From contig NZ_KN360933.1 in the NCBI RefSeq assembly GCF_000784355.1, positions 2,786 to 36,076 of the forward strand: DNA of 33,291 bases, in the 5' to 3' direction. Source of the stretch: Methanolacinia paynteri. Its GTDB lineage: Archaea > Halobacteriota > Methanomicrobia > Methanomicrobiales > Methanomicrobiaceae. A model generated the notes under the pieces. The model saw nothing but the letters and a program-made list of their open reading frames with translations. It made no database searches and was not told the DNA's origin. Of this stretch, positions 3,200 to 26,924 are shown piece after piece (positions within the stretch are counted from its first letter, which is position 1; the number at the start of each line of letters is the position of its first letter). The position numbers and the translations under genes were made by a program.

Positions 3200-5794
3200 T
3201 CAAATCGAATCGGGCACCTCAAGAGTGATATTGAGAATAGTGTCCCCGTATTTCTTCGAGGACTGGACTGTTATCTCCTTGTCTTTGAATATCGTTCTGT
3301 TAAACATGACTCCTACATCGTATGTTCCGATAGGAATATCCTCGAACGTGTATGGGGTTACCTGACCCGTATAATCTCCCCTGAGAAAGATCATGCACCC
3401 CTGGGGATCGCTTGTAATCATAAGATTCCCGGTAGAGATCTCCTCCAGGACAAAACTGTAAGAATCATCCACGGCATTACCTTCACATATAAACGATATT
3501 TCCTTTTCTACCGGCAAATATCCGTCTCTTATCACTTTGAGCCTGTGATAGCCGTCCCCGATATTGTCCAGGACACATGGTGTTCTGTACCCTGTTTTCA
3601 TGCCGTCAATGTAAATATCAGCATCGTCAGGATCGCTTGCAACACCGAGAGATCCCACATTTTCACCCTTCTTCAGCACGAACGATTCACCGCCTGAAAG
3701 AAAAGGAAGCGTCATCGAGTAATAATTTTCACCGTCATTAAAGGTCAGGTAACTGCCGAATGATTCGGCCTTCACCTTTGAAGGGACATCGGAATATGGC
3801 AACTCTCCGTTAACGGCAAAGGTCGCTATATATTTAGATGAAACGGATATACTGACTATTTGATTGTCGACATCAACCAGATTGAAATGAACCGGAGTCG
3901 GTTCTCCTGCAGGTACATATACTTCTTTGGAATCAGAGAATGAATTCTGCTTTTTCACCTGGATCTTGTGATATCCTTTCTTAAGGCCGTAGATCAGGTG
4001 GGGGGTGGTGTAATCGGTATCGACACCGTCTATATATATTTCCATCTCTTTGGGGTATGAGGTTACATAGACACTCCCGATCTGGGTTTGCTGCAGGCTG
4101 ACGTTCTCACCAGTTGCTTCTTCCGCGAATTCACCTGAATCATCCGTAATATTTACGCTTTCGGGCACTGCACCGGGAATGTTATTCGCAGGGATTTTTT
4201 CTTCGGAGCCGGAGAATCCTGAAGCGGCCGGAGACACGGAGGCTTCGGGACTTATTACACCGGTAATGAACGAGAAAAACTGTTCCATAATTCCCGTGTC
4301 TGTTCCTGAGGACACCGGCGTAGCGGGAGAGTCCGTCTCAGGCCCCGGTTCTATATTCGCTGTAGAATTATTGGAAACCGTTTCAAAATCATCCACGACT
4401 TCGGTTATGTTCCCGGCCGTTGACAGGTCATTTGGAGAAGTTTCAAAGAAAACCGTCGTTTCATTATCCCGGCCGACATATATTTCCTTAGAAAAGTTTC
4501 TGCCGTCCGCTGTTTTTATGGTTATAGTATGATTGCCCGTAAGAATGTCGGTAAACGTCCAGTTGGCATAACAGAGGGTTTCTTCATCGTCTATATAGAC
4601 CCTGGCGCCCCGTACGTCTGAGAGGACCGTACATCGCCCGGACGCCTGTGTCAGATTGAAATTCCGGGTTGTAATATAACCCGCCTTTATGTGGACTTCG
4701 CTTTCTGCAGGATCGTAATCCTGCAAATCCACACGAACGGTGTAATCCCCTGCAGGAAGATCTGCAAACGAGGCATTGGTCACTTGTCCTGAATCGACAT
4801 CGTCGATATATATATTCGCTCCGACAGGCCTGCTTGTTATATTCAGATTCCCTACCGAAGGAGACCATACTTCTGAGCTGGAATATGAAACCCCGCCGTC
4901 ACTGCCATAATCTATTGCCTCCGAATTTGAAAATTCACCATCCGGGGACGCTGAGGAACCCAGCAATAAGATATATCCGCTTGAAGACGTGTCGGAGTTC
5001 TTATCTGTAGTCGTCCCTTCGATCTTGTTGGTCCATGCTATCCCGTTCTGGACGGCATTGGCATTGAGGGCATACCCGTATACATTGAACACGATGGTCT
5101 CCCCGTTATAGTTTTCAATCGAATATTCGATCTTTGCCATTCCGTTATCTGTTAGGCCGGTGATTTCGCTGTTTTTACCCAGGACACCCACACCGGTATC
5201 AACAAAGAAGATGTAGAACTCATCGGATCTGCCCTGGTCGTACATTATGGGATGGCTGGCCTCACCTGACGGTTTCCAACTCTGGGGGCCATATGTAACG
5301 GAATATAATCCGAAACTGCGATCGATGGAATTCCTGGCATATGTTATCTCCGAGGCGAGCGGGGGCTGATTTTCTACTCCGCTTGATGTCCAGCGATAAC
5401 CGCTCGCTTTTATATTGATCTTCAGGTCCTCGCTGAGTTCTTCTCCCGAGTCAGGGGCTTTTATCGCCACCATGAGTATGACTTTATCAAAATATCCCCT
5501 CCCCCCGGTATCGGCAAGATAGAACGTTCCTGAATCGGAAGATACGGTCGACACCTGCCCATATGGTGAAGAAATACCTGTTGTAATATGCAGTGCATTC
5601 AGTCCTCCACCTGCTTCCCGGAACCCGACATAGTAACCGGCACCGTTTGCAGTTTCTATATTCACATGGTTATAGTCGCTGATTGTGCTGCCGGTGAAGT
5701 CCCAGGCATATACGGAGGGCGCAGCCAATGCGACTGCCGCCAATAAAAGCAGGATATATGCAAAATACCTGTAATTTTTCATAGAATTCATCAT
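3200..5794 (-). CDS. Exported DUF3344 protein with five PEGA repeats, 864 aa
   Basis: Surface protein. A signal peptide (about residues 1-30, ending SVYA) precedes a DUF3344 domain at about 34-280, marked by YYVGFREAGGGLNALHIT, the SGTFYLADTGGRG segment, the YGPQSWKP motif and FVDTGVGVLG. PEGA repeats, small beta domains typical of archaeal envelope proteins, follow at about 316-382, 386-453, 572-640, 714-783 and 788-857. Their cores read PVGANIYIDD, RGARVYIDD, PKEMEIYIDG, PDDADIYIDG and PQGCMIFLRG. A Ser/Thr/Pro-rich linker at about 455-570 separates the first two from the rest. There is no C-terminal membrane anchor, so attachment would be by protein contacts. Two ATGs in tandem begin the gene; GGGGAGAGGGG just upstream supports the first, at 5794. 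The DUF3344 ligand is unknown. Confidence 0.88.
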   Translation of the reverse strand: MMNSMKNYRYFAYILLLLAAVALAAPSVYAWDFTGSTISDYNHVNIETANGAGYYVGFREAGGGLNALHITTGISSPYGQVSTVSSDSGTFYLADTGGRGYFDKVILMVAIKAPDSGEELSEDLKINIKASGYRWTSSGVENQPPLASEITYARNSIDRSFGLYSVTYGPQSWKPSGEASHPIMYDQGRSDEFYIFFVDTGVGVLGKNSEITGLTDNGMAKIEYSIENYNGETIVFNVYGYALNANAVQNGIAWTNKIEGTTTDKNSDTSSSGYILLLGSSASPDGEFSNSEAIDYGSDGGVSYSSSEVWSPSVGNLNITSRPVGANIYIDDVDSGQVTNASFADLPAGDYTVRVDLQDYDPAESEVHIKAGYITTRNFNLTQASGRCTVLSDVRGARVYIDDEETLCYANWTFTDILTGNHTITIKTADGRNFSKEIYVGRDNETTVFFETSPNDLSTAGNITEVVDDFETVSNNSTANIEPGPETDSPATPVSSGTDTGIMEQFFSFITGVISPEASVSPAASGFSGSEEKIPANNIPGAVPESVNITDDSGEFAEEATGENVSLQQTQIGSVYVTSYPKEMEIYIDGVDTDYTTPHLIYGLKKGYHKIQVKKQNSFSDSKEVYVPAGEPTPVHFNLVDVDNQIVSISVSSKYIATFAVNGELPYSDVPSKVKAESFGSYLTFNDGENYYSMTLPFLSGGESFVLKKGENVGSLGVASDPDDADIYIDGMKTGYRTPCVLDNIGDGYHRLKVIRDGYLPVEKEISFICEGNAVDDSYSFVLEEISTGNLMITSDPQGCMIFLRGDYTGQVTPYTFEDIPIGTYDVGVMFNRTIFKDKEITVQSSKKYGDTILNITLEVPDSI

Positions 5795-7386: not shown

Positions 7387-8412
7387 ATGAGACATCATTC
7401 ATTTCGTTCGGAGGAATATGCAGGAGTCCAGCAGGAAGCAGGCAGCGCCATCGGAAAGATACAGAATGAAGACGAACTTTTTTTCAAGCTGAGAAAACAT
7501 TTTGATTACAATGTCTGTCCTTTTTATGTCCCTGACAGGAATACTGCGCTTGCACTTGCACATTCATCCATGACGGGACCGGGCGATCTGTATCTATGCT
7601 CTTCCACTTCGTATGTCGCCAGCAGGGGCCATGCAGCCATAAAAAATATCGCAGGCATCGAACCCCTGGAAGTCCAATCCGAATTCGGGAAAATCACCCC
7701 CGCTGCAATCTCCGGGTCCCTTGAATCAGCCGGGGCCGAAGACAGAGAGAGATGCAGGGTAGTCTCCATCTCACAGCCGACCGAGTACGGTATGATATAC
7801 TCCCCGAAAGAGATCTCGGAAATCTGCAGGTGTGCGCATGAAAACGGGATGCAGGTCATAATGGACGGCTCAAGGATTTTTTTTGCGGCGGCGAAGATCC
7901 TTAAGGCATTCCGCGAGCAGACAATGGATGCAGGAGTGGATGCGACAACATTCGGAGGAGAAAAGAACGGAGCTCCGGAAGGAGAGGCCGTATTGATCTT
8001 TAAAAAAGATGCCGCAGAGAAGTTCAGGGAAAACTGCAAAAAAAACAATACCGATACATCAGGCGCATCCGCTTTTTCTTCAGGAATCAACCGCCTGCTG
8101 ACCGAACGTCTCTGGAGATACAATGCAATTCACGCAAATGAAATGGCAAAAAAACTCGCAGAAGGAATCTCGGGGATTCCGGGAATCAAACTTTTCTGCA
8201 AGGTCGAGACAAATAAAGTTCTGGCAGAGGTCTCGCCTGAAATATTCCAGAAGTTAAAGGATAACTACAGTCTCAAATCGTTCAGGTGCCCTGACCAGAC
8301 TGTGAGGTTCGTAACAAACTACAAAACCTCGGAGTCCGAGATAGAAGAGCTTACAGGGATTCTACGGTCAACCGAACAAGCGGAACAGGACGACAATATT
8401 CATTCTTCCTGA
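7387..8412 (+). CDS. Threonine-aldolase-family PLP enzyme
   Basis: Fold-type I pyridoxal-phosphate enzyme of the low-specificity L-threonine aldolase/beta-eliminating lyase family, which cleaves threonine or allo-threonine to glycine and acetaldehyde. The N-terminus FRSEEYAGVQQEA is the family's usual opening. VIMDGSR (Asp160) is the aspartate that pairs with the PLP ring nitrogen, and FGGEKNGAPEGE supplies the Schiff-base lysine (Lys193). The length of 341 aa is normal. The ribosome site before the ATG at 7387 is weak; the good-looking GGAGG downstream precedes an out-of-frame ATG. The last 13 bases overlap the 3' end of the convergent gene on the other strand. True substrate preference cannot be read from the sequence. 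Confidence 0.88.
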   Translation: MRHHSFRSEEYAGVQQEAGSAIGKIQNEDELFFKLRKHFDYNVCPFYVPDRNTALALAHSSMTGPGDLYLCSSTSYVASRGHAAIKNIAGIEPLEVQSEFGKITPAAISGSLESAGAEDRERCRVVSISQPTEYGMIYSPKEISEICRCAHENGMQVIMDGSRIFFAAAKILKAFREQTMDAGVDATTFGGEKNGAPEGEAVLIFKKDAAEKFRENCKKNNTDTSGASAFSSGINRLLTERLWRYNAIHANEMAKKLAEGISGIPGIKLFCKVETNKVLAEVSPEIFQKLKDNYSLKSFRCPDQTVRFVTNYKTSESEIEELTGILRSTEQAEQDDNIHSS

Positions 8413-9914
8413 ATTTCTTCATTCACGGAGCGGACGGTTTTATCGACAAGACGCTTCGCAGTTTCGTATATTCTTACAAATTCGCTCATTTCAGGCTCCC
8501 TGTTCGCGTATACGACAGAATCGCAGACAGAGAAAACATCCGAATATGTTCCGGCATAGGGATCGCCGGCCTTTTCGAGCTGTGAGAGGGCCTCAGAATT
8601 GGTAAGACTTACATTTTCTCCCGAAGTGACAGAGACGTTCAGTCTTAAAGCCCAGCCCACCCTGCCTACGGCATCTTTCAGATCGCCGCACAGGTACCTG
8701 TCATAACCTTCGGCAAGTAGATCGGAGGGAGAAATCCCTGCTTCGACTCTGGTCAGAATATCGCCATCATCCGGCCCCGGTTTCGTCCTGCGAAGGTGTC
8801 TTAGGTATACCCTGTAAAAGACGAACGCACACACAACCGTAAGGATGATAACAATAACCGGGACGATGAAATGGATTCCGTAATCCGGTTCATGAACTTC
8901 CACGGAGATAATCGCTCCGTCCGAAACCATGACTGCAATGTCTTTTTCAAAGATTCCTTTCGTATATGTGATCCCGATCTGCGATGCATTGACGGTAATA
9001 TTCGTCACCGATCTTGTTACCGAATATCCGTCATCCGAGAATTCGCTGTCAAAGGAGATGTAGGTCGCATTCTCTTCGACACCGTATAAAAGCGGCATTC
9101 TCCCCTCCGATGCTATACCGGTGAAGAGTATTTCATCGCCCGAGATCTCCCCGGACACTCTAATATCAGATTCGTTTTCGCCTGAATAGACCTGTTCGAA
9201 CTCGTCGTTATATGCCCCCAGACCGGGGCTTATGGAAAGGACGCCGGAATTGTAACCTGATTCGTTGAGAAACTGATCGATTACCGGGTATATCGCGGAA
9301 CTGTTTACAACACCTTTTAAGCGATTCTTTTCCACGATTATGTTATTGGTCTCGTTTTCAAGTATTTTTGAAAGCGATTCCATGTTCTCATCCGTCTTTT
9401 TGATAAGGACCTGTTTACCACCCGCCCTCTCACTCCCGCTCTGCTGCGGTGCGCCTTTGTCCATCCTGATCTGAACGCTTTCGAGAACTGAAGTGGCTGG
9501 GGCAGTATCCACACTGCTGTCCGGAATGACTCTGATCCCGGTAAGAGATACATGATATGCATCATCTGCATTGACGCTGTCCGCGTAATCGAATGCTATA
9601 TCAACAAGATACTCGTGCCCGTCAGCCGGCTGAATCGCGAACGATGTCCTCTCAATATCTGCGAATATCACTCGTGCGTCCGTAGAACTCCGGGTGTTGT
9701 CCGCATCATTCAGGTCCCGCACGGTCCAGGTAAACGACCCGTAGATATCTTCGCCAAGAGTGTTCTCAACACCCAGTCCGATCGAGATCTCTTCGTCCGG
9801 GGAACTGTAGATCACCGGACTTTCTGCAGTAAAGATGATCTCTCCTGCTAGGACCGGCTGGAAAAAAAAGACGACGGCAACAAAAAATATTACATAACCC
9901 GGGAGTCTCTTCAT
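8400..9914 (-). CDS. Exported single-pass membrane protein, last gene of the MoxR/VWA cassette
   Basis: Fourth gene of the MoxR-DUF58-VWA cassette, in the position often held by BatD- or DUF4129-like membrane proteins. A signal peptide (KRLPGYVIFFVAVVFFF, cut near AG/EI) leads an ectodomain of about 325 residues. One membrane helix follows at about 347-368 (FIVPVIVIILTVVCAFVFY), a basic stop-transfer RHLRRTK, and a cytoplasmic helical tail of about 130 residues. I see no named domain with certainty; the role as a BatD analogue is inferred from position and topology. The frame opens at a GTG at 9929, but the ATG at 9914 overlaps the previous stop as ATGA, as at the other junctions of this operon, so I chose it (504 aa). 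Confidence 0.8.
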   Translation of the reverse strand: MKRLPGYVIFFVAVVFFFQPVLAGEIIFTAESPVIYSSPDEEISIGLGVENTLGEDIYGSFTWTVRDLNDADNTRSSTDARVIFADIERTSFAIQPADGHEYLVDIAFDYADSVNADDAYHVSLTGIRVIPDSSVDTAPATSVLESVQIRMDKGAPQQSGSERAGGKQVLIKKTDENMESLSKILENETNNIIVEKNRLKGVVNSSAIYPVIDQFLNESGYNSGVLSISPGLGAYNDEFEQVYSGENESDIRVSGEISGDEILFTGIASEGRMPLLYGVEENATYISFDSEFSDDGYSVTRSVTNITVNASQIGITYTKGIFEKDIAVMVSDGAIISVEVHEPDYGIHFIVPVIVIILTVVCAFVFYRVYLRHLRRTKPGPDDGDILTRVEAGISPSDLLAEGYDRYLCGDLKDAVGRVGWALRLNVSVTSGENVSLTNSEALSQLEKAGDPYAGTYSDVFSVCDSVVYANREPEMSEFVRIYETAKRLVDKTVRSVNEEIQEE

Positions 9915-10864
9915 GGAAGAACCCGCCACCTGCCGTAGCGAATAAGGTATTCTGCTATCACCAGCAACCCTGCGAGCAAAAAGAAGAGCCAGCCCACCGG
10001 AGTTTTCTCCTTTTCATGGACTATCGCATCGTCCAGCTGCGAATAGATATTGCCAAGTGTTTTTTCATCCACCGAACTGTAGAACCCGCCGCCTGTGGAA
10101 TCCGCAATATATTCGAGCGTCTCCTCGTCAACGGTCGCATACCGGGGATTGTTCGCCCAGTCGTATCCTACAAGCACCTTCTCCGAGGAGCCCATCGCGA
10201 CGGTGAATACCTGGACTCCGCTCTCCTTCGCAAATTCTGCAGCAGTCTGCGGGGATACATAGCCTGCGTTGGACTCACCGTCCGATAACAGTATAACAAC
10301 GCTTTTCCTGTTCGGGATCGACTTCGACATATCGACCGCCAGTGCAAGGCCGTCTCCTATCGCCGTGGAATCGTCGCTTGCGGCGATCATCCCGAGTTTT
10401 TCGATCACTCTTTGCTTATCGGGACTGAGATAGGCGGCAGTCGAGGCCCCGGAATCGAACGTTATTATTCCCGCGTAGTCCTTCGGGTCGAGCTGGTTTA
10501 TGAGTGTACCGATCGCCTCTTTCGCAGCGGTGATCCTGTCCGGCTGGTAATCGGCCGCCTTCATACTGCCCGAGGTGTCAAGCGCAAATACGATGTTTAC
10601 ACCCTCTTTGGTCTGTTCAAGAGGTAACTGTGGGCCTGCAAGACCAATGAAGATAAATGCAATCGCTATAAGCCCGAGGGAAAACGTGACCTTCAGGAGC
10701 CTTTCCCCCCTTTTTCCGGGATTCGCTGCCTTTATCACCGAGAGCTTCGAGAATTCAAGGGCCCTGAGATATTTTCTCTTTGAAAAGTACCGGCTGTACA
10801 GGATTATCAGGGGAACAAAGATGAGTCCTGCAAGCCAGATAGGGTCTTCGAATTCGACTATCAC
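9911..10864 (-). CDS. VWA-domain membrane protein, BatA-like
   Basis: Membrane-anchored von Willebrand factor A protein. Two membrane helices (about residues 8-23 and 56-77) precede the VWA domain and one follows it (about 292-310). The MIDAS metal site is intact: DTSGSM at 96-101, the later threonine in DDSTAIGDG, and the aspartate in LLSDGESN. MoxR ATPases paired with such proteins are thought to act as chaperones that load metals or assemble envelope complexes. The open frame begins at a GTG at 10885, but a GTG at 10864 overlaps the DUF58 stop as GTGA and gives the usual BatA-like start, so I prefer it (317 aa). It is co-transcribed with its neighbours by overlap. Confidence 0.9.
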   Translation of the reverse strand: MIVEFEDPIWLAGLIFVPLIILYSRYFSKRKYLRALEFSKLSVIKAANPGKRGERLLKVTFSLGLIAIAFIFIGLAGPQLPLEQTKEGVNIVFALDTSGSMKAADYQPDRITAAKEAIGTLINQLDPKDYAGIITFDSGASTAAYLSPDKQRVIEKLGMIAASDDSTAIGDGLALAVDMSKSIPNRKSVVILLSDGESNAGYVSPQTAAEFAKESGVQVFTVAMGSSEKVLVGYDWANNPRYATVDEETLEYIADSTGGGFYSSVDEKTLGNIYSQLDDAIVHEKEKTPVGWLFFLLAGLLVIAEYLIRYGRWRVLP

Positions 10865-11787
10865 TGTTCGGCCACCATCCCGCACAGCCTGAAGTATATT
10901 TTGAGGGACGAAAGGTCGTCGTCATCCGTATAGATCTCCAGGGGACGTATCCCGTAATTTCCGAACGCCCCTTTGATCTCTTCATCCCTTGCGGCATTTG
11001 CCTCCGCGAACTTCTCCCGGAGATCGCCGTCAGAGGTGTTTACTATCATCTCCTCTCCCGTCTCCGGGTCGCGAAGGACGAGATAGCCAATGTCCGCCAG
11101 TTCATATTCGGATCTGTCCCTGATCCATACCGGCCTGATCTCGTGCCTTGCCGACAAGAGACCGATCTCCCTTTCGAATGGCGGAGAGTCGAAGTCCGAC
11201 AGGATTACCACGAGAGACCTCTTTTTTATCGCCGGAAGGAGAGCAGAGAGTGCATTTCCCAGGTCCGTCCCCTGTGACTCCGGCCTGAAATTTATCAGCC
11301 GGCTGACAAGGTACGAGACATGCCTTCGTCCCCTGCCGGGGGGAACGAACAGCTCGACCTTATCTGTGAATATGCACATCCCCACTGGATCTCCACGCAC
11401 CGACGCCGAGAAGATCAGTGAAATCGCGATCCCGAAGATCTTTTCGTCCTTCGAGATCTCCCGCCCGAATGTCCCGGAAGCGCTCCTGTCGATTAAAACA
11501 TACACAGGGGTGTCGTGATCTTCGGTAAATACTCTGAGATATGTCTCGCAGAGTCTTGCGGTACTGTTCCAGTCTATCGCCCGGATGTCGTCCCCGAACG
11601 TATACTCCTTCAGCTCCAGGAATTCCGAACCGGTTCCCGAGAAAGCAGACCTGTGAGAGCCGGTTCCGATCTCCTCGGACAATTTTGCCACGACGATCTC
11701 GATCTCCGATGCCTTTTGCAGGGCCTCGCCTACTGTAAGAGGGGTTATCGCAGAAGGAGCGGACGGATCGATGATCTCAGGGTTCAT
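10861..11787 (-). CDS. DUF58 family protein
   Basis: Cytoplasmic DUF58 protein, a degenerate VWA-fold family nearly always encoded beside MoxR ATPases. The signature FLELKEYTFGDDIRAIDWN, followed by ARLCETYLRVF, is present at about 56-86, and the VWA-like metal loop reads LIDRSASGTFG near residue 100. The length of 308 aa is usual. The ATG overlaps the moxR stop by four bases (ATGA), and the gene's own stop overlaps the next start the same way, which suggests translational coupling through the cassette. The molecular role is unknown. Confidence 0.92.
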   Translation of the reverse strand: MNPEIIDPSAPSAITPLTVGEALQKASEIEIVVAKLSEEIGTGSHRSAFSGTGSEFLELKEYTFGDDIRAIDWNSTARLCETYLRVFTEDHDTPVYVLIDRSASGTFGREISKDEKIFGIAISLIFSASVRGDPVGMCIFTDKVELFVPPGRGRRHVSYLVSRLINFRPESQGTDLGNALSALLPAIKKRSLVVILSDFDSPPFEREIGLLSARHEIRPVWIRDRSEYELADIGYLVLRDPETGEEMIVNTSDGDLREKFAEANAARDEEIKGAFGNYGIRPLEIYTDDDDLSSLKIYFRLCGMVAEQ

Positions 11788-12761
11788 GGGACATCGACAG
11801 ACTGCAACAGTGTTGAGATTATCTCGTCAGGAATCGTGCCTGCGGCCTCCGCCTGGAACGACAGGACAATCCTGTGCCTCAGTACGGGCAGGGCGACGGA
11901 TTTGATATCGTCAGGCGTGATGTATTCTCTCGAAAGGGTCAGGGCACGCGCCTTTGCACATTTGATCAGCCCGATGGACGCCCTGGGGGAGGCTCCGGCC
12001 TTTACGGCTGATGCGACATCCGGAGCATAATCTTTCGGGTTCCTCGTCGAATCGACTATCTTCGATACGTAGTCCATCACGGTCTCGTCCGCATATATGC
12101 CGTTCAGGCATTCCTGTATTTCCGTGATTCGTCCGCGTGCAATCACGTTCGAGACCTCCGGCACATTTCCGCCCGTGTATCTCGCCATTATCTCCTTTTC
12201 ATCGCTTAAAGACGGATAATTCATCACAATCTTCTGCATGAACCTGTCGGTCTGGGCGTTGGGGAGCGGATAGGTGCCCTCCGACTCTATCGGGTTCTGT
12301 GTCGCGAGGACAAAGAACGGCTGCTCTATCGGCCAGGTCTCGCCGTGTATCGTCACCTGCCCCTCCTGCATGGCTTCGAGGAGTGCAGACTGCACCCTCG
12401 GGGGTGCCCTGTTGATCTCGTCGGCGAGGATGATATTATGAAACACCGGGCCTTTCAGTGTCTCGAACGAACTCTTGTAGAGATTGTAGATCTTGGTCCC
12501 CGTAATATCGGCGGGGAGAAGATCGGGCGTGAACTGTATTCTGGCAAAGGAACAGTCTATGCACTTTGCGATTGTATTTACGAGGAGCGTCTTTGCAATC
12601 CCGGGGACGCCTTCAAGGAGGACATGGCCTCCCGCGATCATAGTTACCAGTATGGAGTCTATGACTTCCTCCTGTCCGACTATGCATTTCCCGATCTCTG
12701 TTTTGATCTCCGATATGCTCTGCGCACAATTTTTAATATTTTCAGTATCAGTTCCGGTCAA
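11784..12761 (-). CDS. MoxR-type AAA+ ATPase
   Basis: Hexameric AAA+ ATPase of the MoxR/RavA branch. Walker A is GVPGIAKT (51-58), Walker B IILADEINRAPP (from 110), and sensor 1 is in LATQNP (near 153). The C-terminal lid domain has ASPRASIGLIK. It heads the four-gene cassette with DUF58, VWA and a membrane protein. The start is a TTG at 12761, 9 bases after a strong GGAGGGAG; no ATG or GTG occurs in frame until residue 41, after the conserved IVGQEEV motif, so the TTG is needed. An out-of-frame ATG at 12768 lies between the ribosome site and the TTG. The gene diverges from the TiaS-like gene across about 220 A/T-rich bases. Confidence 0.93.
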   Translation of the reverse strand: MTGTDTENIKNCAQSISEIKTEIGKCIVGQEEVIDSILVTMIAGGHVLLEGVPGIAKTLLVNTIAKCIDCSFARIQFTPDLLPADITGTKIYNLYKSSFETLKGPVFHNIILADEINRAPPRVQSALLEAMQEGQVTIHGETWPIEQPFFVLATQNPIESEGTYPLPNAQTDRFMQKIVMNYPSLSDEKEIMARYTGGNVPEVSNVIARGRITEIQECLNGIYADETVMDYVSKIVDSTRNPKDYAPDVASAVKAGASPRASIGLIKCAKARALTLSREYITPDDIKSVALPVLRHRIVLSFQAEAAGTIPDEIISTLLQSVDVP

Positions 12762-12985: not shown

Positions 12986-13726
12986 GTGACTGAAATTACA
13001 ATATACATAGGAATAGACGATACCGACATCCCCGGTTCCCGCGGAACAGGGCGGCTTGCACACGACGTAGCGATTGCGGTCTCGGAGAAATACCGTGCGT
13101 ATGCAATAACAAGGCACCAGCTCTTTGTAGACGACAGAATCCCGTACACCTCGCACAACAGCAATGCGGTCGTTCATGTCGACGCGTCGGGACCTGAGGT
13201 ATGCAGCGAGATCTTTGAAATTTCAAAACAGGTGATGCTGGACCAGTTCCTGGAAGGAAGCGACCCGGGACTTGCGGTCGGCGATTCCGACCAGATCCGG
13301 CCTCCTCTGATTGTTATGGCCCAGGATGCGAAGACGACCGTCCTCGACCAGGAACTGCCAAGGGCACTTGCAAAGAACCTCGGAATCCGCCTTGAAGGGC
13401 TGGGCGGGACCGAGGACGGGGTGATCGGCGCAATGGCCGGACTCGGTCTTGCCGCGACAAAGGATGACGGCAGGTTCCTGCTCTTAGGCAGTCTCCGCAC
13501 AATAATGAAAGAGACCGATGTGGAAACACTTCTTGCAAACGGCGTCGATTCCGTTTATCTCCCCGACGGAAGACAGGTCACATCCGGGATCATCAGATTA
13601 GGGGGAGGGGAGAACAAAAAGAAGAAGGACAACCGGTACCCCAAACCGAGTGCTGTTGCAGGGAAGACGGTTCTGTTTGTAAAAGAGATAGAGGATGGGA
13701 TCTACCAGGCATATATGAGAAGATAG
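12986..13726 (+). CDS. TiaS-like (TCKD-fold) protein, 246 aa
   Basis: The N-terminus IYIGIDDTDIPGSRGTGRLA carries the IDDTD motif of the kinase-like catalytic domain (TCKD) of TiaS, the enzyme that attaches agmatine to C34 of tRNA-Ile2. True TiaS is about 420 aa with further RNA-binding and zinc domains; this protein lacks them, so it is a stand-alone paralogue of unknown substrate. LGGTEDGVIGAMAGLGLA in the middle is glycine-rich and may bind phosphate. It ends one base before the next ATG and so probably belongs to the ECF operon. The start is odd: the only standard start codon is a GTG lying inside the perfect ribosome site GGAGGTGA (12983-12990). A TATA-like box about 30 bases upstream would leave almost no leader. 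Confidence 0.7.
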   Translation: MTEITIYIGIDDTDIPGSRGTGRLAHDVAIAVSEKYRAYAITRHQLFVDDRIPYTSHNSNAVVHVDASGPEVCSEIFEISKQVMLDQFLEGSDPGLAVGDSDQIRPPLIVMAQDAKTTVLDQELPRALAKNLGIRLEGLGGTEDGVIGAMAGLGLAATKDDGRFLLLGSLRTIMKETDVETLLANGVDSVYLPDGRQVTSGIIRLGGGENKKKKDNRYPKPSAVAGKTVLFVKEIEDGIYQAYMRR

Positions 13727-13727
13727 C

Positions 13728-14537
13728 ATGGAAATCTCCGGACGTGTCGCAGCAGGATTTGCACTGGTCATTGTAGTAATAGGAGTACTGTTTGCAATCC
13801 AGTTCTCGGCGGAGGAGTGGCTGACGCTGAACCCGCCGGAGGATATGACGCCTGCTATAGATACGGAGCACTCGCAGGTTTTTGAAAAGGGCGATTTCAA
13901 TTATATCTCGCAGAAGTACAGGCCCTACAAGGAACCGCTGTTAATTGCGACCGGCGACGATCTGAAGGATTCGACCTGGTACCTGCTCTTTGCAGATCTC
14001 AATGTAACCCCTCCGTTCGGCGGGAATCCGCTGCTGGGGAGAACCGGTTATGTGCAGGTGGAATACGAGTTCGGGAATCTTGCCGGGACTGCCGCTTTTC
14101 ATGTCCTCGGGCCCTATACGGACGGCTCATGGAGGACGAACAGGATGGAGGGCTACGGATCGTCGGCATTATACGTGACCGGCAATTCTTCGCCGGGGAG
14201 CTCTATGAGTGCCGCACTCGATATGGAGGAGTACAATGACTTTTATCTTCTTCCGGCGGGTATGACGGCAGATGATTCTGAAATTTCGGCAGCGTATTCC
14301 TATTATGTATATTTTGATCCGACAAGAGGCGGCCTCGGGTCGCTGCATATCACACGGGACCCGTCCTCGATAAAGGGCGACATCTATTACACCGGCGAAC
14401 AGTCGGGTGTTTTCAATGTAACTCATAACGGAGGCAGCTCCGCTGAGGAGGTCCTGCTCCTTGTCGCAGTGGATGAGATGCAGCCGGACGATTTCTCGCT
14501 GTCGATAGATGCGAAGTTTATACCAACAGAGGACTGA
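13728..14537 (+). CDS. Membrane-anchored protein with circularly permuted DUF3344 domain
   Basis: An uncleaved-looking signal anchor at residues 7-25 (VAAGFALVIVVIGVLFAIQ) leads an extracytoplasmic chain. Residues about 52-126 (FEKGDFNYISQKYRP, then GYVQVEYEFGNLAG) match the second half of the DUF3344 domains elsewhere in this window (FEKDDFTYGPQVTRP; GYIKVEYEFSNL). Residues about 189-264 (GGLGSLHITRDPS, SGVFNVTHNGG, VLLLVAVDEMQPDDFSLSI) match the first half (GGVNALHITNDPS, SGEFWITHTGG, VLLLAVNGTIPDDFSVHI). The halves are therefore in reversed order. It sits one base after the TiaS-like gene and three before the ECF S component, which suggests an accessory subunit of the transporter. Its ligand is unknown. 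The permutation was judged by eye. Confidence 0.75.
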   Translation: MEISGRVAAGFALVIVVIGVLFAIQFSAEEWLTLNPPEDMTPAIDTEHSQVFEKGDFNYISQKYRPYKEPLLIATGDDLKDSTWYLLFADLNVTPPFGGNPLLGRTGYVQVEYEFGNLAGTAAFHVLGPYTDGSWRTNRMEGYGSSALYVTGNSSPGSSMSAALDMEEYNDFYLLPAGMTADDSEISAAYSYYVYFDPTRGGLGSLHITRDPSSIKGDIYYTGEQSGVFNVTHNGGSSAEEVLLLVAVDEMQPDDFSLSIDAKFIPTED

Positions 14538-14540
14538 GCA

Positions 14541-15086
14541 TTGCTTTTTAAGAGAGATTATTTTACGCTGAACGAGATCGCCCTGATGTCTCTTCTCGGG
14601 GGGCTGGTCTTCGTAATGCTTATGGCGCTCAGGATGCCTCTCCACATTCCGGGGCATACCGGAATATTCATGGTAATCCCGGTGATTATCGGGGTCGCGA
14701 TAATCCAGAAACCGGGCAGCGGGACGTATATAGGGCTTGTAGCCGGAGTTCTTCTGTCTTTCTTCGGGGTCAGCGCACTGCATGTCTTCGATGTCTTCCA
14801 GTACACGGCACTGGGAATGGTGACCGACATTATCGGGTACTCCTTCCGCTACAGGATGGACCTGACTCCCGTTTCTGTTCTTGCAGGGATTGCAGGGAAT
14901 CTTGCAAAGATGCTCGTTAACTTCGCTGTGAATCTTGCAATCGGGATTCCGCTTGTCGTGGTTATAATAGAGGCGGGGATCTCGTCGGTAAGCCATACGA
15001 TCTTCGGTGCACTGGGAGGGCTGATCTCCGCGTATCTTGTTGCAAGGCTGATCAGGACAGGAGTGATTACGAGGAATGCCGACTGA
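14541..15086 (+). CDS. ECF transporter substrate-binding (S) component
   Basis: An integral membrane protein of 181 aa with about five or six hydrophobic helices and few charged residues, the size and character of S components of energy-coupling-factor vitamin or metal transporters. PGHTGIFMVIPVIIGVAI and the Gly-rich ALGGLISAYLVARLI end fit this class. The substrate cannot be named from the sequence. The start is TTG at 14541; GAGG eight bases upstream supports it and no ATG is available nearby. The 3' end overlaps the ATPase gene by 11 bases. The identity is supported by the following A and T components. Confidence 0.85.
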   Translation: MLFKRDYFTLNEIALMSLLGGLVFVMLMALRMPLHIPGHTGIFMVIPVIIGVAIIQKPGSGTYIGLVAGVLLSFFGVSALHVFDVFQYTALGMVTDIIGYSFRYRMDLTPVSVLAGIAGNLAKMLVNFAVNLAIGIPLVVVIIEAGISSVSHTIFGALGGLISAYLVARLIRTGVITRNAD

Positions 15087-16551
15087 GACAGGGCCTGCCG
15101 TCAGGATCAGGAACCTTTCCTACAGGTATCCGGGGTATAATACAGCGCCTTCGGTCGCACTCGACGATATAAATCTCGATATCCGTTACGGCGAAAAGGT
15201 GCTTGTGTCGGGTGCTTCCGGTTCGGGGAAATCCAGTCTTCTGAGGTGCATCAACGGTATCATACCTAACTCCGGCAGAAAAGGGAGTGAATTTTCAGGT
15301 GAGGTCTTTGTCTCGGGTATGGACACCCGGTCGCATTCGATTGCAGAGATCTCCGGGACGGTAGGAACGGTCTTCCAGAACCCGGACCAGCAGATAGTTA
15401 CGAACTCGGTCGAATCGGAGATCGCGTTCGGGCTGGAGAATCTCCGTACTCCCCCGGAGGAGATCGGCAAAAGGATCGGGAATATCACCGGGCTCATGCA
15501 TATCGAACACCTGCTTGACAGGGAGACCTCCGATCTTTCATGGGGAGAGAAGCAGAAGGTCGCAATTGCTTCGGTTCTCGTGATGGAGCCCAAAATTGTT
15601 GTTATGGATGAACCCTTCTCCGGTCTCGACCCACGGTCGGCGGCGAGCCTGGGAGAACTGCTGAACACCCTGAACAGAAGGTTCAATCTTACGATCGTCC
15701 TCGCAGAGCACAGGACGGAGCAGGTGTCCGGGATGGTCGACAGGGTTGTGAACCTGGAGAAGGGCAGGATAGCATACGACGGCCCGCCGGATGATGTAGG
15801 GAGTGTTCCCATTTCAAAAGGAACCGACTATCCGTTCGTTCGCCCGGCTCCTTCCGGCATGGAATGTACTCCGGCTATAGAACTTGCAGGTGTAAGTTAT
15901 TCATACCCGGGATCGTCCTCCCCGGCGGTTGACAATATATCCGTGGGATTTTACCCCTCTATGATCACGGTTGTGCTCGGTTCGAACGGTTCGGGAAAGA
16001 GCACTCTTTCAAAACACCTGAACGGACTCCTGAGACCGGACTCGGGATGTATCTGCCTGTACGGGGAAGAGATAACAGGACAGGGAAAAGAGAGCGTTAC
16101 AAAAAAAGTGGGGCTTGTATCCCAGCATGCGGACCACCAGCTTTTCGAGGAGAGCATCCCGGGAGAGTTTTCCTTCGGGCCGGCGAATATCGGAATTCCC
16201 GAAGAAGAGATCAACCGGCGTGTTCCGGAGGTTTTGTCTGCTCTCGATCTCGGCCATATCGACCTGAACACGCCCCCGCTCAGGCTCTCCGCCGGGGAGA
16301 AGCAGAGGATAGCGATAGGGAGCATCCTTGTGATGGAGACCCCGGCGATCGTCCTCGACGAGCCTACGCTTGGCCTCGACAACAGGCTCAAAGATGCACT
16401 GGCCGCCGAACTCAGGAGAAGGGCAATGAAGGGCGGCTGCATTATAGTAATGACCCACGACCTCGAATTCGCCTCGACTCTCCGCCCGGAGAGGGTTCTG
16501 GTGATGGAAAACGGGCGAATATCTCATGATTCGAATAAAGCAGGTGGCTGA
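15076..16551 (+). CDS. ECF transporter ATPase with two fused nucleotide-binding domains
   Basis: Energizing subunit of the ECF transporter, with the two ABC ATPases (EcfA and EcfA') fused in one 491-aa chain. Domain 1 has Walker A GASGSGKSS (46-54), Q-loop QNPDQQ, signature LSWGEKQ (154-160), Walker B IVVMDEP and switch His212. Domain 2 has GSNGSGKST (302-310), Q-loop QHADHQ, LSAGEKQ (404-410), IVLDEP and His461. Both sites look catalytically complete. The QNPDQQ form of the Q-loop is typical of ECF ATPases. It is translationally overlapped with the S gene upstream and abuts ecfT downstream (stop TGA followed at once by ATG). Confidence 0.95.
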   Translation: MPTETGPAVRIRNLSYRYPGYNTAPSVALDDINLDIRYGEKVLVSGASGSGKSSLLRCINGIIPNSGRKGSEFSGEVFVSGMDTRSHSIAEISGTVGTVFQNPDQQIVTNSVESEIAFGLENLRTPPEEIGKRIGNITGLMHIEHLLDRETSDLSWGEKQKVAIASVLVMEPKIVVMDEPFSGLDPRSAASLGELLNTLNRRFNLTIVLAEHRTEQVSGMVDRVVNLEKGRIAYDGPPDDVGSVPISKGTDYPFVRPAPSGMECTPAIELAGVSYSYPGSSSPAVDNISVGFYPSMITVVLGSNGSGKSTLSKHLNGLLRPDSGCICLYGEEITGQGKESVTKKVGLVSQHADHQLFEESIPGEFSFGPANIGIPEEEINRRVPEVLSALDLGHIDLNTPPLRLSAGEKQRIAIGSILVMETPAIVLDEPTLGLDNRLKDALAAELRRRAMKGGCIIVMTHDLEFASTLRPERVLVMENGRISHDSNKAGG

Positions 16552-17370
16552 ATGGCCGGGCGTCGCAGTAAATTCAGGTGGGGGATCTCGTATATCCCCG
16601 GCGAATCATTCGTTCACTCACTTGATCCCAGGACGAAACTTTTCGCCCTGGTCATAGTCAGCATCGGTTCTCTTCTCTCCGGCAATCCTCTTATTATCGG
16701 GATCTTCCTGGCAACCGTTCTCTGTTTTGCCGCCGCGTCGGGGATCTTCAGGGAATGGATGCATTCGATGAGGATTCTCGTCCCGATACTGGTTATCACG
16801 ATCCTCGCCGACTTGTTCTTTTCAAGCTCGAAATATTCCTACGGAACTATATTTTATTCGGGAGATTTCTGGATCCTGCATGCCGAATTATCATACGGGT
16901 CGGTGATATTCGCTATTTCGATGGTTCTGCGGATTATAACGATAGGCGGCTTTTCATTCCTGTTCATCATGACCACCCCTTACAACACGTTCATCAAGAG
17001 TCTCAGCCTCTCGGGAGTGCCGAAGACGTTCACCTTCTCCCTCGGGTATGCATTGAAATCGATTAATTCCCTGTCGCACGATGCGTCCGAGATCATCGCG
17101 GCACAGAGATCGAGGGGCCTTGTATTCAGCAGAGAGCTCTTATTCAGGGAGCCTGTGCGGATTCTTTCGATCTTCGTCCCGATGGTGGTGACCGTGATGA
17201 ACAGGGCCGACCAGGTCTCTGACGCCATGCAGTGCAGGGGCTACGGCCTGAATAAAAAACCGACGATGTACATGCCTCCCGTGATGAAAAAAAAGGATTA
17301 TATTTTATTGTCTGCTGTAGTCGTCGTTTTGGCGATCAGTATCTTGATCGGATCTTTTTTTGTTTTGTGA
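16552..17370 (+). CDS. ecfT: ECF transporter transmembrane (T) component
   Basis: Membrane scaffold that couples the ATPases to the S component. About five or six hydrophobic helices flank a long cytoplasmic coupling region with the paired Ala-Arg-Gly-type motifs, here AQRSRG (184-189) and AMQCRG (225-230). HSLDPRTKL near the N-terminus is a family hallmark. AGGTGG lies 4 bases before the ATG. The last codons run through a T-rich stretch (GATCTTTTTTTGTTTTGTGA at 17351-17370) that could also serve as a U-rich terminator of the operon. Confidence 0.93.
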   Translation: MAGRRSKFRWGISYIPGESFVHSLDPRTKLFALVIVSIGSLLSGNPLIIGIFLATVLCFAAASGIFREWMHSMRILVPILVITILADLFFSSSKYSYGTIFYSGDFWILHAELSYGSVIFAISMVLRIITIGGFSFLFIMTTPYNTFIKSLSLSGVPKTFTFSLGYALKSINSLSHDASEIIAAQRSRGLVFSRELLFREPVRILSIFVPMVVTVMNRADQVSDAMQCRGYGLNKKPTMYMPPVMKKKDYILLSAVVVVLAISILIGSFFVL

Positions 17371-19021: not shown

Positions 19022-22000
19022 TTATTCGTTCTTCCTGCACCTGCGGTTCACAACCGCGATTGTACAGAGAAGTCCGAATGCGACAAAGACGATCATGTTG
19101 CCGAAGAGAGGCGTCGCCTTTGCGGTTGTTGAAGGTGTTGCAGCCGATGTGTTCCCTTCCGTTCCCACAGAGGTCGGCTGTTCGGTCACCGGCTCTGTAG
19201 TTGTTGAGCTAACCTGATCGAGATCGGGCACAGCGACTATCGCAAGGTGGCCAAGTGATGCGGAATCTGCATAGTAATAGCAGACTCCGTTCTTCTCCAA
19301 GTCGAAGACTGTCGAGAGCTTCGTCCATTCGTCCTTATCCTCATCGTAGTAATACAGCGAGAGGAGATCCGGCGAGGAAAGCCTGCTGTCCACCCAGTCC
19401 GAGAGGACACTGAACCTTATCGTGGATTTGCTCACGTTTTCGGCGGGTGTGTCATATAAGAACGCGGCTATATACTCGTACACGTCGCCTTCCGGAGCTT
19501 CGGCACCCTCTGGCATAATACCGGCTTCAACCGTGACGAACAACTTCGGGATATTGGTCTTTGCATAGACATCCATCTCGTAGATGCTCGTTTCATCGAA
19601 ATGAAGTGTCGCCATATCTCCGGCCTTCAGGTTCTCCGCACTGTCGATTCCGATCGCAGATGTACCTCCGCCCGATGCCGGGACATATGCCGGGGAGGCA
19701 GGCGGCTTCTCTGTCGTCGCAGCAAGTCCGAACATCGACAGACCGTTCGGAGAGTATCCTTCAAAGGTCATTATTCCGCTGCTCGTTCCGATGTGTGTCG
19801 TATCGAGAACCTCTTTCTTTCCGTCCTCGGCTATACGGATGATCTTTATAGATTCTACTCCGCCGTTGGCTTCTACCCACGACTCGGGTACTGACATCGT
19901 GATCCTTGCCTCTTTGATCTCCTGTCCGTTCGTAAGATTGCTCTTTACGATATTCATCGTGTATGCAACATTATCGACGTTCAGGCCGCTAGAACTTGCG
20001 GCTATCTGGAAGGCGGTTCCGTTTCCTGAGTTGCCCTTTTCGATGGTTACTTCAAGACCGGAATCTTCCGGCAGATCGTTTAATTCAAGGTTCACAGAGC
20101 CGCTGACGTTTCCGAGCTCGTCAAGGACTGCCTCGACAGGATCGGTTTCAAGCTCGATTCCGGCCACATCAGAAACGAGGCTGTCGCCGTCTGTCTTCGG
20201 CGTCCTGTCGGATTTAATCGTTATCGTGTAACTGCCTGAATCGATTACTATGTTGGTTCCGTTAACCTGGACTTCGGACTGGTTAACCGTATACTGTTTG
20301 CTACCGCTGCTGCTGTTAGTGAGCGTACCGTTGTTCTTTATCGATACATCCTTTGTAAGCTTCTGAACACCCTTGACGGTGATGTAATTCTTCCTCGCCG
20401 AACTGGAGTCGCCCTTTTCGTTTTTGGTAGTCAGGGTGACAGAGTAGTTGCCCACGTTTTCGAAAGTATATGCCGGGCTCTGCTCTTTGCTGTCTATCTT
20501 TCCGTCACTGTCGAAGTCCCACGCCCATTCGGTCGGGTAGTTCGAGGACGCATCTGTGAACTGTACCTTCAGGGGGTATTCTCCGTTAGTATTGCTTTTG
20601 GCGGCGACGAAGTGGGAGACCGGTGCGGATGTTTCGGTAACGAGTGTAACATTGTCGAGGTAGGCATAAATGCTTTCACCACCGCTATAATACCTGAATT
20701 TTACAGTGTGTACTCCGGAATACTCTGATACATCAGCAGTATAATATGTCCATTCTTCAGGGTTAGAATCCGGGAAGGTCTGAACAGCTGTGTCATCTAT
20801 GTAGAATTCGAATTGGTCTAACAAAACGACCCGTGGGGTTATATAACCCCAGAACGATATCTCCGAGACTCCGGTCAGGTCGACAGACTGTTCGACGTAA
20901 CCATTCTTTTTACATATGTACGCGGAGAAACTGCCATCCTGAACAACATCAGTAGAGATTACGGCTCTATCTGCATCTAATTCCCATCCGCTCAGGTCGC
21001 CGGTCTCAAAACCGGAGTTGGCCATCCTGTCAGCGGAAGAGTTTCCGGTAACTACGATATATTCCTCTTCCGTATGGGTTGTGTTTCCTCCGTCGTTACC
21101 CACACTCAGGCTGACCGTGTAAAGGCCCGGGGCATACCAGTGAGTCGGGTTCTGTTCGGTTGAGGTCGTGCCGTCACCGAAGTCCCAATACCAGTTTACA
21201 GGAGAATTTGTCGAAGTATCCGTGAAGTTTACCTCAAGAGGTGATACGCCGGATGTCACATTCGCAGTGAAAGACGGTTCCGGAAGGGTCCCTGATATCT
21301 GTTTGATCTTTATGCTCTTCGTATCGCTGCCGAGGTAATTTACGACCGTCAGGTTTACAGTATAGACTCCCGGCTTGGTATAGGTATGCTCGGAGTTCTG
21401 TTCGGTCGAGTTCGTACCGTCCCCGAAGTCCCAGTACCATGAGTACGGCGCCCCGGAGGAGGTGTCGTTGAACTGCACAGTTTCGAGAACTGTTCCTCTC
21501 AGGGTGCTTGCGTCAAACCCGGCGACAGGCGGTTCGGTAACTCCGACGACCTCGTATTCACTGCCACTGGATGACATGATGATCCCGGTCCCGTGGCTCG
21601 ATGCACTGTACCAGCCATACGCATTGAAGACTGCAAATGTCGTCAGGTTACTGAATTCATATTCAACTTTAATGTAACCATCGGGTATAGTCTGCGTGAC
21701 ACCGAGATCCAGGTCGATGAACATCAACTCGAATGTATTCGACGTGTCGTTCATATCCTGCCCGACGAATACCGGATAATCGCTGATACGATGCGGTCTC
21801 CAAGTCTGCGGACCGTAGATGAAGTCATCCCTTGTAAAGGTCTGGTTCACTGCTCCTTCGACATACTTGAGCGGTCCGATCGTATTGTTATTTTTGATAC
21901 CGGGGATTGGCGCTTCGAAATCGTAGCCGCTTGAGCGGATGTGTACGCTGAAGTCATCAGGGATCGTTCCGTTTACCGCAAGGAGCAGTACCCCGTCATG

Positions 22001-25000
22001 CATGTTTGGCTGACCGCCGGTATGCGTTATCCAGAATTCGCCTGAAGCGTTGCTTGACTTCGTAAGCTGACCATATGAATCGGAAGGATCGTTTGTTATG
22101 TGAAGTGCGTTAACTCCTCCCGAAGACTTGCCACTGAGCATGAAGTACGTGTTGTTTACGAATGTATACGTAGCTTCAAGAGTAATTCCATCCTCAACAT
22201 TGTATTTTACACCCTCGTCATTTGCGACATACAGGTTAAGGCATTGATCCACCGGGAGCGGTTTTGCATTCGTATAACTAGACTCGATGTAATCAGTCTT
22301 TGTAATCTTATCGCTGCCTGCATCATTAGATGCTTTCAGAGTAATGGTATAATTACCAATTTTAGTGTAGGTATGCACAGGATTCTGTTCGGTGGAGCTA
22401 GTACCGTCACCGAAGTCCCACTCCCATGAAGTCGGCTCAAATTCCGATTCATCGGTGAACTGAACTGTGGGATACCTGCCGTACGTCCTGTCGGCGGTGA
22501 AGTTCACTACCGGGGTGAGCATATCCCTTACCACGATCGGGCTGGTGGTCACATTGCTGCCGGCATCATTCATTACTTTCAGGGACACGGAATAATTCCC
22601 TTCAGATTCAAACGTATAAACAGGATTCTGCTCGGTCGAAGTGTTCCCTTCACCGAAGTCCCAGTACCAGCTTGTGATATTATAGCCCGTCGAGTTGTCG
22701 GTAAAGGCCACTGAAAGCGGGGGCATACCGGTCGTCTTGTTCGCCTCGAACACGGCGACCGGCTGATCCTGTTTTCCGACTGTTATATCCTTCGTGATGT
22801 TGCTGTAACCACCGTAGTTTGTCACGGTCAGGGTGACGTTGTAGATTCCATAGACATCATAGGTATGAGTCGTGTTCTGGTCGGTCGAGTTCGTACCGTC
22901 GCCGAAGTCCCACTCCCACGAGAGGAACGGAGAATTCTCGGAGAGATCGGTGAAGTTCACATTAAGCGGAGCCTGGCCCATTGTAACGGAAGAACTGAAA
23001 TTGACTAAGGGAATCGGCTGAGCGCTTATACTGATGGTATCACTAAAGGTATCACTGCCTGCCGGATTTTTTACAGTCAGTTTTACGTTATAAGTTCCTG
23101 CCGAGAGATACGTGTGAGTCGGGTTCTGCAATGTCGAGGTATTGTCGTCACCGAGGTCACCGAAGTCCCACAGCCATTCTGTCGGGCTATTCGACGAGTT
23201 ATCGGTGAAGTTGACGGTCAACGGAACCTCGCCGGATGTTACATTGGCAGTGAAGTTAGCCTTCGGTGGATTGAAGGCATTAATGTATCCCTCTCTTTTT
23301 ATGCTGAATGTCTCGTCACTGTCATGGTCTTTTATCGTAAGGTTTACGGTATATGTTCCATCGGACGAGTAAGTATGCAATGGATTCTGTTCACCCGAAG
23401 TCTCGCCGTCGCCGAAATCCCACTTCCATGATTCTACATTCCTGCCGGAAGTGCCGTTGAACTGCACGGACAGCGGACTTGATCCGGAAGTCTTGTCTGA
23501 AGTAAAATCAATGACTCTTTCGATTGCATATAAATATCCTGTGGTATAGGAAGCGACATAAAGTGTTCCGTCTGAACCAATTGTAGGACTACTATACAAG
23601 TTTGAATTTATTTGGTAAGTCCAGATATTACTTCCATCATCAGGATTTATAGCATGGACATGTCCTATTGAGGAGGAAGAATAGCTACATAAATATATTA
23701 TACCATCGGCACCGAGAACCGGTGTAGAATATACAGAATCAATATCGGTTTTTTCCCATTTGATCTCTCCATTATCCGGGTCAAGTGCCAACATTTTCTT
23801 GGAGTTATATGAAGCCAGATAGATAGTACCGTCCGATCCTATGACAGGAGAACTATATTTTATACGCATCCCAATATTTTTCTCCCATTTCAGAGTACCA
23901 TTGGGGTTAAGTGCATAAATCAGCTGATTATCCCATATGCCATACGGAGCGAAATAAATAATACCGTCCGATCCTACTGAAGGACTTGACACCAGAGTCG
24001 CTCCCAAAGCAGTATACGTCCAATTAACTGAACCATCATCAGGATTCAGTGCATAAAACGTCTGTTCTGTAGAATCAGAACTACTATCACTATTCGCTCC
24101 AATATAGATGTTTCCGTCGATGCCGATTGAAGGAGTGCCATAGATCATACCATTTGTTTCAACGGACCATTTTAAAGTCCCATCAGGATTCAGTGCATAG
24201 ACATTTCTATCTTTGCTCCCGAAATAGATCGTCCCGTCAGAACCAATAACAGCAGATCCGAAAACATCCCCCACCGTGGAATAGCTCCATTTTTCAGTCA
24301 TATCGGATGAATTAACCGCATAGAATTTGTCGTCATAGCTTCCGAAGTATATGGTCCCGTCAGAGCTGATGGCGGGTGTACCAGTTATTTCTCCACCTGT
24401 TTGAAAATTTTCAGATTTCAGGGTTCCATCAGAGTTTATCGCATGAAGTGAATAATCACCATCTCCCCCTACATATATAGTTCCGTCATTACCTATAACA
24501 GGAGATGAATATTTGAGCTTAGTTCCAAGAGAGAGACTCCATTTCTCTACTACAACATCCTCTACAAGAGCCTGAGGTCCGTTATATGGAGACTGACCTG
24601 TGTGTCTTGAGTCATGACCCCACTCAGGAAACGCCGAATCGGCAAGAAGAGAACCAGGTGATGCAGTGACCGTAATATAACCGGAAACTACAGTAGAGTT
24701 GCTGATTCCGCCTGAATTCGTTGCGGTCAGGTTTACCGAGTATGTTCCGGCACCGCTGTAGGTATGGGTTGCATTTTGTTCTGTTGAAAAAGAACCGTCA
24801 CCAAACTCCCATAACCATGATGTCGGTGAGCCGGACGAAGTATCGTTGAACTGAACCGATAAAGGAGCATCACCGCTTGTCACATTTGACGTAAAAGATG
24901 CCACAGGAGGTTCAATAGATACCGAAGTCTGATTTAGAATCTTCAGTTCGCCGTCTGTACCGATGTTGGTCCAGGATATACCTGGTTCCGGATTGTCCTT

Positions 25001-26096: not shown

Positions 26097-26924
26097 TTAT
26101 TTATCCTCCTCAGGAGGCACAATCACTTTCCAGACGTTCGGATTGGTCCTATTTCCCTCGACATCATTTGTCCAGCGAATTCCTGGGAGATTAAATGCTA
26201 CCGAACCATTCTTCGCGCGAGTCATGTAGTTCCACGCGTAGGCATTGAATACAACTTCAGAATATTCGTCCAAACCGGATATATCATACTCTACTTTTAC
26301 ACTCCCATTATAATCCAGTGATACGTTGGATGTTCCCCCCAATGTGTCAACGAATATAAGATTGAAGTCCTTATTTCCATCAAAGATGGGCAGATCAACG
26401 TATGGGCCTGGTTTCCAGGTCTGTAATATACCGGTCAAATAATTAGAAGATGTTAATGTTACATTCTTTGTATAACCGGAAGTTACACTTGATGGTGCGT
26501 ACCCATCTGTGGCGGTGTAATCCCAAGTGTTACCGCTCACGTTGAGGGTAATACTGGGAGAACCACCAGTTGCATTCACCCCAATGAGGAGAACAATATC
26601 GTCCTGGAAACCCCTGCCTCCGAAATCTGTTACGTAGAATGTTCCAGATGCAGGCCCAGAACTAGTCACCTGACCTTTTGTAGTGCTGGCATCCGATACA
26701 TAAATCGCATTCAGTCCTCCAGTAGGTTCTGTAAAGTTTATGAAATATGTATAGTCTCCATACTCGTTTTCCCTTATATCGTTATCCGCGACCGTGATGT
26801 TGATATGATTATAGTTAGATAACGCACCAGCCGAAACCGGCAGAATGCCGAAAGCGGCGATCACGAGCAGTGCGGTAACCGCAATGCCAATTGATTTTCT
26901 CATACTTCTCTTTTGTTTTTCCAT
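26097..26924 (-). CDS. Exported single-domain DUF3344 protein, 275 aa
   Basis: A signal peptide (to about residue 32, VSAGA) is followed by one DUF3344 domain that fills the chain. The first half has YFINFTEPTGGLNAIYVSDA, the SGTFYVTDFGGRGFQDD segment and VLLIGVNATGG. The second half has LQTWKPGPYVDLPIF, FNLIFVDTLGG and VKVEYDISGLDEY. It ends PGIRWTND plus a short acidic tail, with no anchor, so it is probably secreted or held by other surface proteins. AGAGGTGA lies 4 bases before the ATG at 26924; a later in-frame ATG (residue 8) has no such site. It lies upstream of the giant gene, which has two copies of the same domain. The domain's ligand is not known. Confidence 0.87.
   Translation of the reverse strand: MEKQKRSMRKSIGIAVTALLVIAAFGILPVSAGALSNYNHINITVADNDIRENEYGDYTYFINFTEPTGGLNAIYVSDASTTKGQVTSSGPASGTFYVTDFGGRGFQDDIVLLIGVNATGGSPSITLNVSGNTWDYTATDGYAPSSVTSGYTKNVTLTSSNYLTGILQTWKPGPYVDLPIFDGNKDFNLIFVDTLGGTSNVSLDYNGSVKVEYDISGLDEYSEVVFNAYAWNYMTRAKNGSVAFNLPGIRWTNDVEGNRTNPNVWKVIVPPEEDK

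Follow-up and report, generated by a model that had tools for sequence, protein, structure and literature searches.

A stretch of 33,291 nucleotides from Methanolacinia paynteri (hereafter the window) encodes, between a TiaS-like gene and the genes of an ECF transporter, a 269-aa protein (13728-14537, forward strand). Parts of this protein resemble a domain carried by other proteins of the window, where the two halves of the domain stand in the opposite order. Two questions are raised by this arrangement. How is the domain of the 269-aa protein related to its counterparts, and what would be its function within a transporter operon?

The 269-aa protein carries a circularly permuted domain

The 269-aa protein begins with a helix (residues 3-34; 13734-13829, forward strand), observed in the AlphaFold model and by hydropathy, which would act as a signal anchor or a signal peptide and whose orientation across the membrane is presumed. 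The following domain has the order B-A. Its B half (residues ~45-151; 13860-14180, forward strand) corresponds to the C-terminal half of the domain found elsewhere in the order A-B, and its A half (residues ~172-266; 14241-14525, forward strand) to the N-terminal half, as seen by BLAST and profile alignment. Among relatives of the 269-aa protein, the B half is marked by the motif YGPQxW[RK]P and the A half by the motifs LHIT and GxFYxTxTGG. Copies in the normal order A-B had been assigned to three proteins of the window and all of them could be located, on the reverse strand. They occur at 5027-5671 in an 864-aa PEGA protein (gene 3200-5794), at 24965-25660 and 21572-22243 in a 2255-aa PKD protein (first and second copies, respectively; gene 19022-25789), and at 26205-26810 in a 275-aa single-domain protein (gene 26097-26924). 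The second copy of the 2255-aa protein was delineated by BLAST and with an AlphaFold model; the other copies were read in the island.

When the 269-aa protein is compared by BLAST with this second copy, the halves match crosswise, residues 49-152 with the C-terminal half (E 3.6e-11) and residues 173-260 with the N-terminal half (E 1.6e-13). The same relationship is found with family profiles, built from 26 permuted and 32 normal-order sequences. The N-terminal half of the permuted form matches the normal-order B half with a probability of 99.8%, and its C-terminal half matches the A half, also with 99.8%, as compared to 0.1% for the cross pairs (N-terminal half versus A, C-terminal half versus B). 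With both profiles in their native order, the hhalign alignment covers the A half only, with a score of 152. After rotation of the normal-order profile, the whole domain is aligned in a single continuous piece, with a score of 292 (E 1.9e-53). Scanning the rotation point gives a sole peak at the A/B junction, the other points yielding the score of a half-domain. Moreover, the same conserved residue occupies 43 columns in the permuted and normal forms, many of these residues being polar or aromatic. The swap of halves initially proposed is therefore borne out, and the 269-aa protein contains a circularly permuted version of the normal-order domain.

The predicted structures show a matching fold. 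AlphaFold models give a single compact beta-sandwich for the permuted protein (pLDDT 82.5, pTM 0.79) as well as for the normal-order domain (pLDDT 86.8, pTM 0.89). When the secondary structures of these two models are compared, the strands pair one to one after rotation: normal strands 137-148, 154-157, 182-188, 202-209 and 214-226 correspond to permuted strands 48-53, 59-61, 84-90, 107-116 and 121-130, and normal strands 58-61, 72-74, 78-85, 94-102 and 110-119 to permuted strands 206-209, 219-222, 226-233, 243-248 and 257-266. Different folds, or two tandem partial domains, had been named as outcomes that would speak against a permutation; the compact models and the continuity of the rotated alignment uphold it. 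It may also be imagined that two independent half-domains were reordered by shuffling, without any circular permutation, since the halves do align separately as long as no rotation is applied. This is very improbable and was discarded, because profile comparison finds the A and B halves mutually dissimilar, because the normal domain is modelled as a single compact body, and because the domain copies are whole in the ten islands read.

The identity given to the domain in the original prediction, DUF3344, has to be abandoned. Pfam finds no DUF3344 (PF11824) in the 269-, 864-, 2255- and 275-aa proteins. The true DUF3344 copies of the M. paynteri genome are located on a different contig, and in profile comparisons they match the new domain with probabilities of 0.9% and 0.4%. 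Both domains are found in archaeal surface proteins, but they have no profile similarity. On that contig, one 3531-aa protein (L004:2887-3495, contig C29 of genome G000) contains true DUF3344 copies as well as the new domain, once, in its normal order, and a protein bearing both is likely the source of the mislabelling. The new domain has no Pfam name. The 269-aa protein itself matches no Pfam or NCBIfam family, hence no known SBP family of the classical ABC importers. Searches of the PDB with both models retrieved weak generic beta-sandwiches only (best E 0.009 and 5e-4, TM ~0.2).

The origin of the permuted form is suggested by genome G123, where two normal-order copies occur in tandem, separated by a 33-aa spacer. 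Across the junction, the B half of the leading copy followed by the A half of the next one gives an uninterrupted alignment with the permuted profile (E 5e-30) and thus reads as a permuted domain. The permuted form probably arose by such a tandem duplication, followed by loss of the outer halves. This offers a clear natural case of circular permutation, related genomes holding the domain in its normal order, in its permuted order and as an intermediate tandem.

An ECF operon conserved in Methanomicrobiales

All the genes of the operon lie on the forward strand. The first one (12986-13726) encodes the TiaS-like soluble protein of 246 aa (NCBIfam methan_mark_11, E 4e-11; solved TiaS chains, E 1e-4 over residues 2-152). 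The gene of the 269-aa protein starts one base past it and ends three bases short of the gene of the S component (14541-15086). The latter was assigned by Pfam and a family alignment to PF09819 (ABC_cobalt), a family to which YkoE also belongs. The S gene overlaps that of a fused double ECF ATPase (A-A; 15076-16551; Pfam and NCBIfam, with ECF_ATPase_1 and ECF_ATPase_2 above cut-off), which itself abuts the gene of the T component (16552-17370; PF02361, CbiQ; Pfam and NCBIfam). The close packing that had been noted is therefore correct, with spacings of 0-3 bases or an overlap. The S, A, A and T modules are encoded together, as in group I ECF systems (dedicated module), and the S, fused A-A and T genes are arranged as in YkoEDC. 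No riboswitch was found in the operon region.

Full-length permuted genes occur at 40 loci in 39 of 232 Methanomicrobiales genomes. A dedicated subfamily of S components, delimited by a cut-off of E up to 1e-10, likewise has 40 loci, distributed over these same 39 genomes, and each locus adjoins a permuted gene. Thus, the permuted gene stands beside an ECF S gene at 40 of 40 loci, and the possibility raised at the outset that it would mostly be found away from ECF genes is refuted. The order TiaS-like, permuted, S, A-A was observed in 29 of the 30 loci read, the remaining locus ending at the end of a contig. The operon is present in Methanofollis, Methanoculleus, Methanogenium, Methanoregula and other Methanomicrobiales. 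The same gene order was retrieved in Ca. Argoarchaeum ethanivorans by a search of genome contigs with the S component, and all five genes are also present in a genome of another family, G257. A literature search found no paper on DUF3344 with ECF transporters, nor on this operon.

Two particular cases were encountered. Methanoculleus sp. UBA303 has two whole ECF islands on one contig (L090, L092), one resembling that of the window and the other resembling the Methanoculleus type. In Methanogenium cariaci JCM 10550 (L093), the permuted, ATPase, T, MoxR and DUF58 genes are frame-split, probably because of assembly errors.

Surface proteins bearing the normal-order domain

The normal-order domain was found in 47 of the 232 genomes, namely all 39 that have the operon and 8 others; no genome among them has the operon only. 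The co-occurrence is strong (Fisher p 1e-36 when related genomes are treated as independent), and the presence or absence of both operon and surface domain varies within genera. When only genomes at least 90% complete are considered, 30 of 30 with the operon carry the normal-order domain. Most copies are clustered around the operon, no farther than tens of kilobases away. Outside this set, G257 has the operon and no normal-order copy at the cut-off used, which indicates that the surface proteins are not obligatory and that the operon can stand alone.

The host proteins are of ~275-300 aa, ~870 aa or up to 3500 aa. In the window, the representative of the ~870-aa class has PEGA domains and the 2255-aa protein combines PKD with propeller-like domains. 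A C-terminal helix resembling an anchor closes many of the long proteins. In genome G156, two proteins of 339 and 387 aa (L082) combine the normal-order domain with dockerin-like repeats at their end (FDFNGNGIIDFNDIVRLFKEL). Elsewhere in the window, a 624-aa protein (1095-2969) has no Pfam match; in genome G103 (L073), a relative is encoded next to the operon and to a normal-order protein.

Divergent from the ECF operon, the window also carries an operon encoding MoxR, DUF58, BatA-VWA and 509-aa proteins (8400-12761, reverse strand; Pfam), which shares the island in 9 of the 10 genomes inspected. MoxR/VWA operons of this kind are linked to protein maturation. The MoxR/DUF58/VWA operon also occurs in genomes devoid of the ECF operon.

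Possible function and substrate of the system

Small extra subunits beyond the S-A-A-T core are already known in group I ECF operons, such as CbiN in the cobalt system CbiMNQO, and NikN and NikK/NikL in nickel systems. CbiN and NikN are built on two membrane helices (PMC2667541), with an outer loop. In contrast, the 269-aa protein has a single helix and a large permuted beta-sandwich; it is unrelated to them in sequence, and no match to the CbiN or NikN Pfam families was found. Its strict association with one S subfamily, its N-terminal membrane helix and the conserved residues shared with the normal-order domain favour an outer, ligand-holding subunit. On balance, we lean towards the view that the 269-aa protein belongs to a group I ECF importer as its dedicated extracytoplasmic subunit, anchored in the membrane, with a ligand shared with the surface proteins. 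A capture role comparable to that of CbiN, as originally suggested, is plausible and appears as the best reading. In such a model, the normal-order surface proteins and the permuted subunit would bind one same scarce ligand, the permuted subunit would keep it beside the S component, the S component would import it and the TiaS-like protein would handle it inside the cell. The location outside the cell, the binding of a ligand, its handover and the inward direction of transport are all deduced here, and they have to be weighed against other schemes.

The main rival is an export role. An outward ECF system would deliver a small cofactor, and the permuted protein would attach it to the normal-order domains carried by the surface proteins. 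A precedent exists in Listeria, where ECF-related subunits (EetB/FmnA) export flavin for surface flavinylation and co-localise with the genes of the flavinylated, hence cofactor-carrying, surface proteins (PMC9973259). Here too, the transporter has genes of surface proteins as neighbours, and the nearby MoxR/VWA operon is of a maturation-linked kind. The S component is different from that of the Listeria system. Against an export role, the Pfam scan of the window genes recognised no ApbE-like or other transferase and no flavinylation enzyme, the genes are arranged as in YkoEDC, which is an importer, and the operon of G257 comes without the surface proteins that would be its targets. An export function is therefore unlikely. 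Another scheme would dispense with any small ligand: the permuted domain would pair with normal-order domains and act as a docking or assembly hub, tethering the surface proteins near the membrane. One domain family is indeed present on both sides, with strict co-occurrence and clustering, and heterotypic pairing could be promoted if one partner is permuted. But such a hub leaves unexplained the one-to-one tie to an ECF S subfamily as well as the G257 operon devoid of surface copies, and we consider it rather improbable.

If the 269-aa protein is indeed an importer subunit, the nature of the substrate is the next question. The S component matches none of the solved S components and has no close solved relative in the PDB, so that the substrate cannot be read off it. 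The TiaS-like gene gives a lead. Its product is a homologue of the kinase domain of TiaS, with the invariant DDTD motif in the alignment; by this kinase-like region it comes closest to TiaS, the tRNA(Ile2) agmatidine synthetase, and to methanogenesis marker 11. Unlike TiaS, whose chains have ~420 residues, the operon protein has the kinase-like region alone, the match stopping at residue 152 of 246, and is devoid of the tRNA-binding parts; its family is linked to MoSto and ECF genes. TiaS-like genes of this family occur in 113 of the 232 genomes. There are 47 non-operon loci in genomes having a MoSto-like gene, the best solved relative of which is the molybdenum storage protein (E 4e-63). The distance to this gene is under 200 bp for 22 of these loci and under 10 kb for 36. 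WtpA, ModA, MOT1 and MoeA are encoded nearby. Stand-alone TiaS-like genes directly adjoin the MoSto-like gene in many Methanomicrobiales (L134:5629-7215, L135, L136, L140, L141 and others), among Mod/Wtp/Tup, MOT1 and MoeA genes, and their role is undescribed in the literature found.

Given these neighbours, which serve the storage and uptake of Mo/W, our leading guess for the substrate is a species of molybdenum or tungsten, a possible rather than a probable one. In the TiaS-like tree, operon and non-operon copies are interleaved among close relatives. A Mo/W substrate remains only a lead, given that none of the 25 operon TiaS-like genes lies within 10 kb of MoSto and that ModB/WtpB-type permeases are kept in all 30 operon genomes searched. 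The latter observation also rules out that the ECF system replaces the Mo/W ABC importers. MoSto is not a required component of the system either, the M. paynteri genome having none. Alternatively, the operon may encode a YkoE-type importer of thiamine or a thiamine precursor, the TiaS-like and permuted proteins being accessory and unrelated to Mo/W. The assignment of S to PF09819 and the S, fused A-A, T layout shared with the B. subtilis thiamine transporter YkoEDC would fit this idea, as would the possible presence in YkoEDC operons of an extra thiamine-binding protein, YkoF (PMC5037267). YkoF is soluble and differs in kind from the 269-aa subunit. Nevertheless, the S profile matches no YkoE chain of the PDB even at E 1, the operon region is devoid of a riboswitch and the TiaS-like gene points toward Mo/W loci. 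We thus find thiamine transport improbable. A more elaborate relay, where the surface proteins would capture Mo/W species and hand them to the permuted ECF subunit, would make this system the first ECF importer of an oxyanion, served by an antenna at the cell surface; we give little credence to it at this stage.

Returning to the favoured outer subunit of an ECF importer, its domain is an otherwise undescribed one, a predicted beta-sandwich that the same cells would display on exported, often large and anchored proteins. If this reading is true, ECF importers would gain an outer subunit of an undescribed kind, and a large class of unannotated archaeal surface proteins would acquire a testable role in nutrient capture rather than in adhesion.
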